Of a stretch of DNA of 32,437 bases, positions 16,145-21,709 are shown piece by piece (within the stretch, counting starts at the first letter, position 1; each line of letters opens with the position of its first letter). The notes under the pieces are model-generated. The model was given only the letters and a program-made list of their open reading frames with translations. It did no database searches and was not told the DNA's origin. The translations under genes and the position numbers were made by a program. This DNA comes from Limosilactobacillus avistercoris (GTDB lineage Bacteria > Bacillota > Bacilli > Lactobacillales > Lactobacillaceae). The stretch is taken from assembly GCF_014836425.1 (NCBI RefSeq), contig NZ_JACSQW010000022.1, positions 1-32,437 of the forward strand. The letters run 5' to 3'.

Positions 16145-17140
16145 TTATTGAAGATCAGGGTTAATCTTAATCACTGGTTTGATTACTTCACCCTTGGCGG
16201 AGTCATTGAATGCTTGATTAATGTTTTCAAAGTCGTATGTTTTGATTAACTTGTCAAACGGGAAACGACCTTCTTGATAGTACTTTACAAGTTGGGGGAT
16301 GAATGATTGTGGTTGACTATCCCCTTCAACCACACCAGAAAGCTTCTTGGATTCCAATAGAAGATCGTTCATCAGGTTAAGCTTAATCTCACCACCAACA
16401 CCGACAAGGACACATTCGCCAGCTGGGGCAAGAGAGTGAATTCCAGAAAGGATTACTCCAGAATTACCAATGGTGTCGATAACATAAGTAACTCCACGTG
16501 GCACGGCTTTACGAATTGCTTCTTCAGTATCTTCAACTGAATTATCAATTACTTCGGTTGCACCAAGTTCACGGGCAAGATCAAGGTGGTTACCATTTCG
16601 GTTAACGGCAATGATGTGTTTCATGTTGGCAACCTTAGCAGCCATTACAGCAGAAAGGCCAACTGCACCAACACCAAGGATTGCAATTGTGTCTTCTGGT
16701 TTTGGCTTCAGGTAGTTAAGGACAGTTCCAGCTCCAGTTTGAATTCCACAACCGAGTGGTCCCAAAAGGTTGATATCAACGTTTGAGTCAACCTTTACCA
16801 CGTTATGTTCATCAGCAACAACGTGATCTGCAAATGATGATTGGCCGAAGAAGGTGCTGATATCTTGACCGTCTGGCATGTGAAGACGGTGGGAGCCGTC
16901 ATAGTTAATCCCGGAGAAATTTAATTCATTAAAATGTTCACACATCCCTGGGTGACCGTGTTCACAATTATAACAATGACCACAGTAACTAAATGAGAGG
17001 ACGACATGATCCCTGGGCTGAACACTTGTAACGTTTTTACCAACCTTCTCGACAACACCGGCACCTTCATGGCCTAATGCAACGGGAAGGGGAGTAGTTG
17101 CACCATCACGTCCAATAGCATCCGTATGGCAGCCCTTCCT
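16145..17140 (-). pseudogene. 5'-truncated zinc alcohol dehydrogenase (aryl-alcohol dehydrogenase type)
   Basis: From about residue CHTDAIGRDG onward this is a good MDR dehydrogenase: GHEGAG, the four-cysteine structural zinc lobe CGHCYNCEHGHPGMC, GCGIQTGAG with the second zinc cysteine, and GVGAVGLSAV for NAD. The 30-40 N-terminal residues expected before the CHTD cysteine are absent. The frame instead continues into sequence antisense to a LysR gene, up to an ATG-like codon at 17182 without a ribosome site. The break lies between about 17126 and 17150. Loss of the first beta strands probably abolishes function, although the zinc ligands remain. It ends 15 bases before the phosphatase gene. 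Confidence 0.85.
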
Positions 17141-17686
17141 CAAGAGATTAATACCTTTATCAGCGAAGAAGGGGTGGAGCATTTAGTATCGGATGTGATG
17201 CTGGGAAGCCTTGATTGTGCAATTATTTTAGATAACTATGGCTTTAATTATGATTATTCCAAAATGGGGCTGGAAGCAATACCGATCCACCAGGATAAGA
17301 TGGTGATGGGAATTAGCGAACGCCTTGGCCAACAAGAAAAGATTGACTTGGGGTTAATTAAGAAAATGCCGGTTGCTTATTATAGCAATGAAGATTCAGT
17401 TTACCTCAAGCATGCTTTTATTAATAGTTTACGAGGGGTAGTAAAGCCGTTAGAAGTTTTACGGGTTAATTCGTACGAGCAATTGCAGTTATTAGTTGGC
17501 TCTGGGCAGGCGCTTTCTTTTTATCCCCAAAAATTAATTCAGTGTTTACAGCGTCCGGTAGAACGTATTGATTACTTACCATTAAAGACTAATGCCGAAC
17601 AGAACTGTGAGTTCAAACTAATCTATAAACGAGTATCAAAGGCTCCGGGATTAAAATTAGTTAGAGATTATTTTCAGGAGAATTGA
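17126..17686 (+). pseudogene. 5'-truncated LysR-type regulator (effector domain only)
   Basis: The frame encodes the second part of a LysR substrate-binding domain: FISEEGVEHLVSDVMLGSLD followed by CAIILDNY, then KMPVAYYSNEDSVYLKHAF, VNSYEQLQLLVGSGQALSFYP and a C-terminal RVSKAPGLKLVRDYF. The winged-helix N-terminus and roughly the first 110 residues are missing. The apparent ATG at 17126 is only the reverse of the His codon in the dehydrogenase CHTD motif, and no ribosome site precedes it. Homology starts at about 17145-17150. It must once have been divergent from the dehydrogenase it probably regulated; a deletion removed both 5' ends. Its TGA lies inside the -35 of the next cassette. Confidence 0.85.
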
Positions 17687-17712
17687 CTTCGAACGAATGT
17701 TCTTGTACCCTA
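17683..17712 (+). promoter_or_regulatory. SOS (LexA) box within the cassette promoter
   Basis: CGAACGAATGTTTC at 17690-17703 matches the Gram-positive LexA/DinR consensus CGAACRNRYGTTYC at all 14 positions. TTGACT (17683-17688) is a -35 candidate directly before it, and TACCCT (17707-17712) a weak -10 at 18 bases. The box would thus lie between the promoter elements, an ideal repression position. GGAGGAA and the ATG at 17735 follow. Confidence 0.75.
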
Positions 17713-17734
17713 GTAGGGTTAGGAGGAACGGAAA

Positions 17735-18751
17735 ATGGAGAAGTTGGTTACTTTAACCTATCAGCGACGAATTGCAATTTTAAGCCAATTAACTGCTGAG
17801 CAGGTAGCAGCATTGAATGAATTTACCCGCTATGCTTTGTTATCTCAGTTTCATACGTGGCATTATTTAAAGAATACTGATTGGGAATTTGCCGGCCTGG
17901 TCATCGATCCGTATTATGAACGGGCTAGTAGTCACCGTGGAGAAAATCTATATTGCGACTGCGGGCGACGGTTAAAGAACCAATTCATCCTTCGTTCTAG
18001 GTCATCCGGGAGACAGTTAAAATTAGGAATTACCCATTTTCAACAGCACGCTAGTATTCCGGAGAAGGTCGCTAAGGAGATTCAAGCTGGAGTTAACGAA
18101 ATTCACTTATACATGGATAGCATTTTACAGCGCTATGTTGCTGGACACTCATTTCCCCATGCTGCATTTGATTATGCGGTTAAACATGGTGGCTTTACTA
18201 ACCGTGAAAGTACGATCCTATACCAACGTTGTCAGTTATTTGCAAACGTTGACTTACCGCTTTACCAAACCGATGAATTAGCGTTACGACAACTAGTCCG
18301 TGAATTAAAAAATGGCACTCGTCCTCGATTAACCAGAAAGCAAATTCTGCAGTTAAAAGAAACAATCGCAACAGATTGGCGACAACTTGAGCAACAGTTG
18401 ACGTTAATTCAATTTCAATTAAGTGAAGCTGGTGTGACAGGTCAAGATCTTCACCGGATTAAAAGTAACGGGATTAACTATGCTCTCCAGCGGCGGAAGA
18501 GTCGTTTCTTAATTCACCAGTGGAAGGAGATCACTGACCTAACCTTAAATAAGGCCCGTGCTCAACTCGCAATTAAGTTACGTGAGTTAGCCTTTTACGC
18601 CTTAATATTAGGGGATGAAGAAAAATTCAGCTTGCAACAAACACAAATTTGTCAATCTTTAGCAGCTCATCATATTAGCGTTAAGGGATCCCGGTCATTC
18701 GGTGTCCGTGAAGCACAGAAGATTATTGAAGAACTTTCCGATGCTAGTTAG
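17735..18751 (+). CDS. Uncharacterised protein with a Cys/His cluster, first gene of the HerA cassette
   Basis: A 338-residue, soluble, basic and Gln/Leu-rich protein that I cannot place in a named family. Residues 1-50 are helical. At 72-108 lies LYCDCGRRLKNQFILRS followed by LKLGITHFQQHASIP, giving C74-x-C76 and H101-x3-H105. This is a possible zinc site, distantly reminiscent of the CxxC..HFxH finger of CoiA-like proteins. The rest is predicted largely helical, with a possible coiled region around 185-240. It has no visible nuclease or ATPase motif. The start has a strong AGGAGGAA 7 bases upstream. The HerA-type ATPase gene follows after 48 bases, suggesting a functional pair. The SOS box upstream points to damage control (inference). 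Confidence 0.8.
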   Translation: MEKLVTLTYQRRIAILSQLTAEQVAALNEFTRYALLSQFHTWHYLKNTDWEFAGLVIDPYYERASSHRGENLYCDCGRRLKNQFILRSRSSGRQLKLGITHFQQHASIPEKVAKEIQAGVNEIHLYMDSILQRYVAGHSFPHAAFDYAVKHGGFTNRESTILYQRCQLFANVDLPLYQTDELALRQLVRELKNGTRPRLTRKQILQLKETIATDWRQLEQQLTLIQFQLSEAGVTGQDLHRIKSNGINYALQRRKSRFLIHQWKEITDLTLNKARAQLAIKLRELAFYALILGDEEKFSLQQTQICQSLAAHHISVKGSRSFGVREAQKIIEELSDAS

Positions 18752-18799
18752 GGCGTGTAAAATAAACATAGAAATTAAAAGATTGATTGGGGCAAGTTA

Positions 18800-19978
18800 A
18801 TGATGACAGAAAACTTTTTTGCGATTAGTAATGGCCAACCACTTAATGATGTAACACCTTTAGTAGCTCATCATTTATTGGTGGTCGGCCAAACGGGTAG
18901 TGGGAAAACAACGACGACGTTATCATTACTCGACCAATTACAACATGCCAATTACACGACGATTATCCTTGATCCGACAGGTGAATACTCAAAACTCCCC
19001 AATTCGGTTACCTATAAGCTAGGTGAAAATGCTTATCTAGAGGCTAGCCGGTTAAGTGCTCACCAACTGCGTGAAGCACTCCAGATTCAGGGAAATCAGC
19101 TTTTAAATGATAAATTAGCGCAAGCTGTGGATGCATTACGGATCCAACAGAACCTGGTTCAATCAAAGCAACCTTACGTTAAAATTGGGGTTCCGATTGC
19201 AACTTATCAAAAACAACTTGCAAGGCTAAGTGATTGGTCACGCTCTTTTGCCCCCCAGAACTTAGCTGCCCAGTTAATTGAGGAGTTTGTGGTTCCATTT
19301 GCTGACGAACGTGCTGATTACTCCCTTCTTGGCCAACAGTATGATCGGCAAACAATTAACCATGAATGGAATCTGATTGCGACCCTCCGCCAGCGCTTAG
19401 CAAGTGATGCTTTTCGAATGCTTTTTGATCCCGATCCACATCCGGGACTGTTTAAGACAGAATTAAACTTTGTCATTAAGATGTTTCTTGAGCACCGGAG
19501 CAGCCACCGGACGTTAGTAATTGATCTTTCAGCATTAAAACGATACGAAGAGAGTCAACGAGTAGTTATTTCGTTACTACTCAAGAACCTTTTGACGGCA
19601 CGTTTACAAAAGCCAAATAACTTCCCGGTAAATATTGTCCTGGATGAGGCTCACCGGTACTTACCAAAGGATGAACATCAATTAGCCGATAACGGGATTT
19701 TTCAGATTCTTCGTGAAGGGCGAAAAGTTGGCTTATCAATGACATTGACAACCCAGTCACCCCTTGATCTTCCCGCTCGCTTACGGTCGCAGTTCGCTAA
19801 CCTCTTATTGCACCACATGACGAGTCCGGAAGAACTATCCAGTTTAGCCATTGCGGATGAGGTGAATTTGAGTAAAATTAGTAAGCTTTCAACTGGTGAG
19901 GCGTTGCTCTTGCTAGCCAATGAGTCACAGAAGAAGATTAAAGTTAACCTGCCAAAATGGTGGGATAAGCAAGCATGA
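18800..19978 (+). CDS. HerA-type (DUF87) DNA-translocating ATPase
   Basis: A 392-residue ATPase of the HerA/FtsK superfamily. Walker A is VVGQTGSGKTTTT (about 29-40), IILDPTGEY follows as in HerA, Walker B is NIVLDEAHRYLP (about 278-289), and the sensor/arginine region is LREGRKVGLSMTLTTQSPLD. HerA proteins are hexameric dsDNA translocases that work with a nuclease (classically NurA) in end resection, and with diverse effectors in phage defence. No NurA is present; candidate partners are the protein encoded before it and the endonuclease two genes on. Two adjacent ATGs (18800, 18803) follow only a weak TTGGGG site, so expression may be modest or coupled. Confidence 0.88.
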   Translation: MMTENFFAISNGQPLNDVTPLVAHHLLVVGQTGSGKTTTTLSLLDQLQHANYTTIILDPTGEYSKLPNSVTYKLGENAYLEASRLSAHQLREALQIQGNQLLNDKLAQAVDALRIQQNLVQSKQPYVKIGVPIATYQKQLARLSDWSRSFAPQNLAAQLIEEFVVPFADERADYSLLGQQYDRQTINHEWNLIATLRQRLASDAFRMLFDPDPHPGLFKTELNFVIKMFLEHRSSHRTLVIDLSALKRYEESQRVVISLLLKNLLTARLQKPNNFPVNIVLDEAHRYLPKDEHQLADNGIFQILREGRKVGLSMTLTTQSPLDLPARLRSQFANLLLHHMTSPEELSSLAIADEVNLSKISKLSTGEALLLLANESQKKIKVNLPKWWDKQA

Positions 19979-19991
19979 TAGGAATGAAGAA

Positions 19992-20843
19992 ATGAAAGTA
20001 CAAAAACAAGGACCGACACCATTTGTAAAGTGGGTCGGTGGGAAACGCCAATTATTAACAGAATTAGAACAATACTACCCACAAAACTTTCACCGTTACT
20101 TTGAACCCTTTATCGGTGGGGGCGCTAATTTGCTGAATCTCTTACCAAAGAGTGCCGTGATTAACGACTTTAATGAAGAACTAGTGAATGCTTGGCAAGT
20201 AGTTAAGGACCAGCCAGATGAATTAATTAATTTAATTGAACAGCATGCTAGTAATGATAGTAAGGAATACTATTTGGATATTCGCTTAGCCGACCGTGAT
20301 GGGCGTCTTTCCCAAATGTCTCCAGTTGAACGTGCTGCCCGCTTTATTTACCTAAATAAGGCAGGATTTAACGGCCTGTGGCGGGTTAATTCTAAGGGAC
20401 AGAATAATGTTCCCTATGGTGCCCATAAGGCTGTTAATGTCCCAGTTGATGCAATCCGTAATGATCACCAATACTTAGCCAGCAACGATGTTAAAATCCT
20501 TCAGGGTGATTATCGGGATGCAGTGGTAGAAGCTAAAGAAAATGATTTCGTTTATTTTGATCCGCCATACATTCCTGTGAACCAGACTGCAGCATTTACT
20601 AGTTACACGAAGAATGGTTTTGGTTTAGCACAACAGGAGGAGTTACGTGACTTAGCCCTAGAATTAGCTAACCGTGGTGTCAAAGTGATGCTATCTAATT
20701 CTGATGTGCCATTGATTGAACAACTTTACACTGATCAGCAATTCCACATTTACCACGTTCAAGCACGCCGTAGTGTTAATTCAAAGGGGAATAAGCGTGG
20801 TAAAGTTGGCGAGGTAATTATTACAACTTATGGAGAAAAGTAA
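19992..20843 (+). CDS. dam: Dam-family DNA adenine-N6 methyltransferase
   Basis: A 283-residue D12-class adenine methyltransferase. Motif X is PFVKWVGGKRQLL (10-22), motif I FEPFIGGGA (37-45), then NKAGFNGLWRVNSKGQNNVP and catalytic motif IV DPPY at 190-193, followed by FTSYTKNGF. The pattern is that of Dam and M.DpnIIA, making GATC the likeliest target, though related enzymes methylate GATATC and other sites. The frame is open upstream into the ATPase gene, but ATG at 19992 fits homology and an AGGA site and leaves 13 bases after the ATPase stop. Its TAA overlaps the start of the endonuclease gene (TAATG), so it is the modification half of a restriction-modification pair. Confidence 0.92.
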   Translation: MKVQKQGPTPFVKWVGGKRQLLTELEQYYPQNFHRYFEPFIGGGANLLNLLPKSAVINDFNEELVNAWQVVKDQPDELINLIEQHASNDSKEYYLDIRLADRDGRLSQMSPVERAARFIYLNKAGFNGLWRVNSKGQNNVPYGAHKAVNVPVDAIRNDHQYLASNDVKILQGDYRDAVVEAKENDFVYFDPPYIPVNQTAAFTSYTKNGFGLAQQEELRDLALELANRGVKVMLSNSDVPLIEQLYTDQQFHIYHVQARRSVNSKGNKRGKVGEVIITTYGEK

Positions 20844-21484
20844 TGATAGAGAACGGTACTGGTGGGGCTAATACTAACCGTAATGGCCTTACTTTTGAAA
20901 AACAGACTGATTTAGCACAACATTTAAAAAATGATTTTAATGGAAGGTATGTATTAGCAGAATACCCAATTGAAGATAAGAATATGGTTAAAAAAGCTGC
21001 AAAGGATCATCGCTTCCTGGTACACGATCAACTTAATGATGAGGATATTGGTGTCATAACGAAGCAATTTCAGTTCTATAACGTATTAAAACAGGTCTAT
21101 GGAATTAAAAACATTCACCATAAATTCTGGAAACCGGATGAGGCTTTCTTTAATTTTAAACGGCGAACGGTCTTTATCGTGGAGAAAAAATACCAAAATG
21201 GTTCTGGATCCGTAGATGAAAAATTATTTGGCTTTAACGCTAAAAGAGTGCTTTATCAAGAGCTATTTAACCGTCAAATGAACGAACCAGTTGTTCCGGT
21301 TGAGTTTATTGCAATGTTTAACCGTTCATGGTGGCTAGATGGCCAGACTTTAGATAAAAATACCGGTAAGGTAAGAAAACAGCAATCAGTTGATTATCAT
21401 GATTACTTTGATAGCTTACGGAATAATGGTGTCCGAATCATGTTTGATCGCTATGAGGACTGGTTTTTAGGCTTAAGTGATTGA
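20843..21484 (+). CDS. PD-(D/E)XK-type restriction endonuclease
   Basis: A 213-residue protein whose start overlaps the methyltransferase stop by one base, implying translational coupling of methylase before nuclease. It begins with GTGGANTNRNGLTFE, a motif I associate with type II nucleases. The candidate active site is PDEAFF (98-103), then FIVEKKYQ, giving D99 with E114-x-K116. The following GSGSVDEKLFGFNAKR is conserved-looking and basic. It is probably the cognate restriction enzyme of the Dam-like methylase, cutting the same site when unmethylated. It is not obviously similar to DpnII or MboI by eye, so the target is uncertain. A strong terminator ends the cassette about 100 bases later. 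Confidence 0.82.
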   Translation: MIENGTGGANTNRNGLTFEKQTDLAQHLKNDFNGRYVLAEYPIEDKNMVKKAAKDHRFLVHDQLNDEDIGVITKQFQFYNVLKQVYGIKNIHHKFWKPDEAFFNFKRRTVFIVEKKYQNGSGSVDEKLFGFNAKRVLYQELFNRQMNEPVVPVEFIAMFNRSWWLDGQTLDKNTGKVRKQQSVDYHDYFDSLRNNGVRIMFDRYEDWFLGLSD

Positions 21485-21582
21485 ATGATCAAAATAATAA
21501 TTTATAAATAAAATAGGACAAAATTATCATTTTATGGTATAACTAATTATGGATTGTTTTATCCAATTAATTACTTTGAATC

Positions 21583-21626
21583 ACAAAAAGGGTGACGATG
21601 TTTTAAATCGTCGCCCTTTTTGTTTT
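21583..21626 (+). terminator. Terminator of the HerA/R-M cassette
   Basis: AAAAAGGGTGACGAT pairs with ATCGTCGCCCTTTTT, followed by GTTTT. The complementary A-run upstream could allow it to act leftward as well. Confidence 0.9.
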
Positions 21627-21709
21627 AAATTATTAATGTTTATAGGCAGTTGAATGAAGTTAATGATAGTATAGAAAACAGGTTGAATTATTTTGGGTGG
21701 TGGTAGTTA

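Follow-up and report, generated by a model that had tools for sequence, protein, structure and literature searches.

As summarized in Table 1, the stretch of Limosilactobacillus avistercoris DNA analyzed herein (contig NZ_JACSQW010000022.1, 32,437 nucleotides, hereafter the window) carries four plus-strand open reading frames (ORFs) in the order P1, HerA-like ATPase, Dam-family methyltransferase and nuclease, with a LexA box in the promoter of the first gene. The box is conserved at the P1 promoter of orthologous loci, and P1, HerA and the restriction-modification (R-M) pair formed by Dam and the nuclease are distributed separately among genomes. We tentatively read this locus as an operon whose first gene, P1, is repressed by LexA and encodes an accessory protein associated with DNA, with other conflict genes appended behind it. 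P1 itself is the part of greatest interest: it is unclassified, its LexA box is conserved, and its family recurs beside several defence systems.

The LexA box of the window, CGAACGAATGTTC, is situated within the 17-nt spacer of a TTGACT-N17-TACCCT promoter. It is the only one in the window, with 0.21 expected and one reached in 18 of 100 shuffled sequences, and taken alone it is weak evidence for LexA control; the -10 element (TACCCT) is furthermore poor, and a consensus promoter scan did not list this promoter. The comparison was therefore made over 18 P1 loci, comprising the 16 genus genomes with P1 and two further named species, with genomes and named loci paired, as we infer, by coordinates and identity. 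An exact box was found at six of them, a one-mismatch box at ten and none at two, and the boxes sit in a promoter-like spacer of 17-18 nt. Because the box thus occupies the promoter spacer at 16 of the 18 orthologous loci, SOS control of P1 appears well supported, and the preliminary description, which had placed the four-gene combination under such control, is strengthened in this respect. The two loci without a box were G017/L043, where the genes abut with zero intergenic bases, and G021/L052. Genes abut over long stretches of the G017 record (L043, L130), which has the appearance of coding sequences strung end to end and not of an ordinary assembly.

The script that sought promoter and box together took the best combination per locus, which favours a find; the unselected check is the box-only count set against 921 other mechanically called ORFs of the fetched loci. 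Between -250 and +40 of their starts these gave nine exact and 68 at-most-one-mismatch sites, a background raised by the inclusion of four loci fetched for holding a box. The LexA box was retained at P1 while the genes 5' of it vary by lineage, and HerA genes at 53 loci without adjoining P1 had no exact box within up to 500 bases upstream, a one-mismatch site being present at -122 of one of them (L102). The window's genome also holds a LexA-family gene: PF01726 gave two matches above cut-off, the better one in a 213-aa frame (E=5.1e-19), although this model also matched 10 of 14 control genomes, including archaea, so that the family match alone is not strict. By eye, a one-mismatch box was seen 5' of the LexA-family gene and an exact box at a ParE-like gene in the same genome. 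Close to where a guanylate-kinase-like ORF of this genome starts (L213:4357-4395), there are two LexA-type boxes 27 bases apart, one of them exact and the other with a mismatch.

The distribution of the parts was surveyed in 50 Limosilactobacillus genomes, including the window's own and some that are only 66-86% complete. P1 orthologs were found in 16, HerA in 35 and the nuclease in four; P1 and HerA occurred together in eight genomes, P1 without HerA in eight (one of which, G027, retains a HerA remnant), HerA without P1 in 27, and neither in seven. P1 was counted at E below 1e-100, which leaves out weaker P1-domain matches in G031, G041 and G049 and a second one in G027, and HerA at E<=1e-30 with partial or broken copies included (partial in G024, in two ORFs in G037/L124). 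In five of the eight genomes with both, P1 and HerA are adjacent, and in the other three they share a contig at a distance of about 12-18 kb by coordinates. The complete P1-HerA-Dam-nuclease operon is present in the window and at L032, L033 (L. vaginalis DSM 5837) and L035. L031 keeps P1, Dam and the nuclease and has between P1 and Dam a 117-aa ORF (L031:11059-11412), in which about 63 C-terminal residues of HerA follow a different N-terminus. At L034, P1 and Dam persist, HerA is split over two ORFs and the nuclease gave no match; L037 and L052 carry P1-HerA without R-M. In a wider set of 301 genomes of the family, 50 matched HerA at E<=1e-40 at many sites, a count that includes one longer, distant HerA (G523, 555 aa, L200); no HerA neighbour is constant across lineages, and some recur within a lineage.

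Given these differing genome distributions, together with a plasmid-borne R-M pair free of P1 and HerA described below, P1, HerA and the R-M pair assort separately. The wide occurrence of the first two genes without R-M, which the preliminary description, together with a known housekeeping role, had named as refuting its proposal, was thus to a large extent observed. Its alternative of a separate P1-HerA pair cotransferred with R-M holds insofar as the two genes co-occur and are often adjacent, and fails insofar as each also occurs without the other. Within the clade with R-M, the ratio of nonsynonymous to synonymous substitution rates (dN/dS) was between 0.04 and 0.14 in the four genes wherever dS was finite; it is undefined once dS saturates and only rough where dS exceeds ~1. 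Between the window and L032, dN was 0.30 for P1, 0.15 for HerA, 0.10 for Dam, 0.09 for the nuclease and 0.05 for the flanking ktrB, P1 being the fastest. The parts look old and constrained within this clade, as judged from these substitution rates.

P1 had been left unassigned in the preliminary description, and this was confirmed: it gave no Pfam or NCBIfam hit above cut-off, none in PADLOC, no PHROG at E=0.1, and no fold match in the structure comparison. Its N-terminal ~187 residues nevertheless correspond to a modular domain, which appears single or doubled in frames of ~270 to 1,140 aa (fragments aside) and was detected at E<=1e-5 in 14 of 398 genomes sampled from the class, the window's own included. 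The residues that do not vary in a 14-row alignment of the domain include C74, C76 and G77, and position 101 carries either His or Cys, a pattern as expected of a metal site. P1 is a member of a modular, unnamed family with a CxCG...H/C motif, and it may serve as an accessory defence or DNA-binding gene.

The neighbours of P1-domain genes include several defence systems. On L. salivarius megaplasmids, seven loci were read (L148, L149, L222-L226), and at each the P1-domain genes lie on the same strand and 3' of a defence system; they form a gene pair at six of the seven (the second gene being in two frames in UCC118), and S39 retains one 396-aa frame with the domain. They follow BREX-1 immediately in ZSA5, behind a transposase in H1 and behind three listed genes in Ren. 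In BNS11, ZLp4b and S39 they follow a set of DNA methyltransferase, DEAD helicase and GIY-YIG genes (with MmeI-annotated pieces in the latter two), and in UCC118 several site-specific methyltransferase genes plus a helicase. Flanking genes such as QueH, DUF1836 and DegV are common to these loci and show them to be a single homologous site at which the systems interchange. In L149, L222 and L224 the defence system is also followed by genes for an AAA ATPase and a zinc-finger-containing protein. Elsewhere, a P1-domain gene follows an MmeI-like methyltransferase, a ResIII helicase and a T5orf172 (GIY-YIG-type) gene in G070; a doubled P1 domain follows a type IIG-like 1490-aa enzyme and a 236-aa gene in G041; and on the Bacillus subtilis plasmid pBS72, caspase-family and TIR genes lie three and four genes upstream of the P1-domain gene. 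Most other neighbours are unannotated.

These neighbourhoods raise the idea, which we regard as rather doubtful, that P1 founds a general companion family, in which a zinc-type domain protein is attached to anti-invader systems that can replace one another (type II R-M at this locus; BREX, methyltransferase-helicase-GIY-YIG, methyltransferases-helicase and type IIG elsewhere) and is LexA-wired in Limosilactobacillus, so that DNA damage would raise the whole defence operon including restriction. Should the P1 family indeed assist a variety of dissimilar restriction and BREX systems, it would represent a shared accessory defence layer missed by Pfam, NCBIfam, PADLOC and PHROG. A LexA-type promoter 5' of a restriction cassette would furthermore allow a link between DNA damage and restriction to be tested directly in a commensal of the gut.

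Several observations weigh against the reading of the locus as a LexA-repressed accessory P1 with conflict genes appended. At the remaining P1 loci, which include many Limosilactobacillus, neither HerA nor R-M stands beside P1. The seven L. salivarius loci count as a single site and not as seven independent events. Beyond them, a link to defence does not hold generally: ten scanned neighbours of P1-domain genes contained no recognized anti-phage family (one NucS_C-like and one LXG protein were seen); the scanned neighbours at L057 and L058 were metabolic or peptidase genes; and no listed defence system accompanies the P1-domain gene on an Enterococcus plasmid and a Paenibacillus plasmid. Among 24 P1-domain genes outside the ortholog group there was no exact LexA box and only two one-mismatch boxes (L202 at -38, L217 at -200). 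As for the protein itself, the motif is the sole pointer to zinc binding, and residues 62-78 were modelled with a predicted local distance difference test (pLDDT) score under 50. Finally, GATC, the predicted target of the R-M pair, is over-represented rather than avoided in the window (1-32437), with 158 sites versus 101 expected and 125 in the largest shuffle.

The first alternative to be weighed is that P1 serves SOS repair or DNA maintenance in the ordinary way, with HerA and R-M as passengers behind its promoter, which we consider a real possibility, albeit not a likely one. It is consistent with the chromosomal position of the gene, its conserved LexA box, its low dN/dS and its persistence at many loci without adjoining HerA or R-M. 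The ortholog is, however, absent from 34 of the 50 genus genomes (some of them incomplete), which would be unusual for core repair, and both the fast divergence of the protein and the several kinds of defence system adjoining its family members argue in the other direction.

It seems improbable that P1 is a transcription regulator tuning the adjoining system by means of its zinc motif and a winged-helix-like C-terminus such as that of its DUF3895 relatives. DUF3895 was found at the C-terminal end in four of ten P1 relatives scanned, two of them above the Pfam cut-off (L203, L204), and the DUF3895 proteins of Bacillus and Paenibacillus plasmids share the N-terminal CxCG...H/C domain with P1; one relative (L055:5865-7952, G136) combines PriCT_1, a helix-turn-helix (HTH) and the P1 domain in a 696-aa frame. 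In P1 itself, in contrast, the DUF3895 end is not detectable, a Pfam scan giving neither a DUF3895 nor an HTH hit, and the intact L. salivarius members, with frames of about 780-1,140 aa, are large for a regulator. DUF3895 was not mentioned in the literature searched. Least probable, and not supported by the comparison, is the proposal of the preliminary description that all four proteins make up a single defence machine, with HerA and P1 processing the DNA ends that the restriction enzyme produces: despite the complete and tightly spaced order at four loci, it fits poorly with P1 and HerA being so much more widespread than the nuclease, with P1 and Dam persisting where HerA is a remnant (L031) or split (L034), with P1-HerA lacking R-M at two loci, with the frequency of HerA lacking P1, and with the related R-M pair on a plasmid devoid of both.

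If P1 is instead an accessory protein under LexA repression with conflict genes appended to its operon, DNA damage arising from phage entry, plasmid entry or broken DNA would activate RecA and lead to LexA cleavage, upon which P1 would rise and HerA, Dam and the nuclease would follow by read-through. The Dam/nuclease pair would act on its own, protecting and cutting DNA probably at GATC, and HerA would operate as a stand-alone DNA translocase rather than docking a nuclease through a HAS barrel. P1, as a putative zinc-type nucleic-acid-binding protein, might help the adjoining system or act on the same incoming DNA, and the four proteins need not make one complex.

The assignment of a HerA-type ATPase to the second gene was borne out by a DUF87 match (E=1.4e-16) and by the Walker A (GQTGSGKT), DEAH and neighbouring motifs, which are invariant in five HerA sequences. 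Its residues 21-380 align to positions 170-552 of a 579-position full-length HerA profile, and the open frame of 399 aa has room for only seven more codons, so that the N-terminal HAS barrel appears to be missing. In Deinococcus HerA, the HAS barrel mediates NurA binding (PMC9960219). While the protein shares the HerA core with P-loop and DEAH motifs with the HerA-NurA and HerA-Sir2/DUF4297-type systems, it differs from them in apparently lacking the barrel and in having no neighbour constant across lineages, and no NurA, SIR2 or DUF4297 hit was obtained among the neighbours scanned (P1, Dam, the nuclease and a LysR fragment). It also matches the mad8 ATPase of MADS (E=1.2e-24, residues 24-384), although no other MADS component was found in the five proteins scanned, apart from HerA's own 0.014 match to mad3. 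The nearest published idea in the literature searched is that of HerA/FtsK-based capture systems thought to pass DNA to associated nucleases (PMC12839542).

The R-M pair was likewise recognizable as described. Dam matched TIGR00571 (E=5.2e-81), and its score of 307.7 bits to DpnM, versus 148.8 to E. coli-type Dam, points to GATC as its target. The nuclease gave one weak Pfam match, PDDEXK_11 (24.9 bits, cut-off 23.7), the sole Pfam family up to E=1, and it had neither a solved relative nor a phage relative at E 1e-5; its PD-(D/E)XK-like residues P98, D99, E114 and K116 are invariant in five sequences, the other four of which are 85-87% identical to it. Dam and the nuclease thus probably constitute a type II R-M system for GATC, the nuclease of which represents an undescribed family. 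The pair resembles DpnII-type GATC systems in having a methylase of the Dam family, whose best solved relative is DpnM, and an overlapping nuclease gene, but differs in that the nuclease lacks a DpnII-family Pfam hit and the operon has no second methylase gene. A related methylase-then-nuclease pair, with a nuclease 49.5% identical, is carried without adjacent P1 by the Lactiplantibacillus plantarum conjugative plasmid NZ_CP017960, the one read of seven plasmid records with nuclease relatives; HerA occurs in 13 plasmid records, this one not included.

Table 1. Features of the P1 operon and its flanks in the window.
Feature	Coordinates	Strand	Description
Promoter-operator	17684..17712	+	TTGACT, 17-nt spacer with LexA box (17690-17702), TACCCT; read from sequence, arrangement recurs in 16/18 P1 loci
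P1	17735..18751	+	338 aa; N-terminal ~187-aa modular domain, CxCG (C74, C76) ... H101, then predicted helical C-terminal half
HerA-like ATPase	18800..19978	+	392 aa; P-loop and DEAH motifs, apparently without N-terminal HAS barrel
Dam-family N6-adenine methyltransferase	19992..20843	+	283 aa from ATG 19992; nearest solved relative DpnM (2dpm); predicted GATC
Putative type II restriction endonuclease	20843..21484	+	213 aa; PD...ExK residues, undescribed family
Intrinsic-terminator-like hairpin	21583..21623	+	17 pairs, 5' of ktrB; may be the operon's or part of a ktrB leader

The layout of four same-strand genes with tight spacing and a terminator-like hairpin proved real, with all ORFs in their described places. 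As read from the sequence, 48 nt separate P1 from HerA and 13 nt HerA from Dam, and Dam and the nuclease overlap by 1 nt in TAATG; the mechanical ORF of Dam begins at 19920, and gene lists of unnamed loci likewise consist of mechanical ORFs. On the plus strand, the consensus scan placed promoter-like sites within P1 (17889, 18649) and at 21501, with none between 18676 and 21501; as it gave eight sites in the window versus 11.0 in shuffles, internal promoters are neither shown nor excluded by it.

The named locus nearest to the window is L031 of L. fastidiosus (90% identity in P1, 97% in ktrB). A conserved stretch 5' of ktrB (21529-21709), with a TATAAC-like -10, ACTTTGAATCAC and the terminator-like hairpin, is common to L031-L035 and L052 and matched no Rfam family at gathering scores. 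Because it precedes ktrB also in L052, a locus without R-M, the hairpin possibly belongs to ktrB rather than to the operon, and the stretch may be a leader or attenuator of this potassium-uptake gene. Directly 5' of P1 lies a LysR substrate-binding piece of 186 aa (17126-17686) with no HTH hit; the rest of its cluster is mostly 283-297 aa, and it may thus be a truncated gene.

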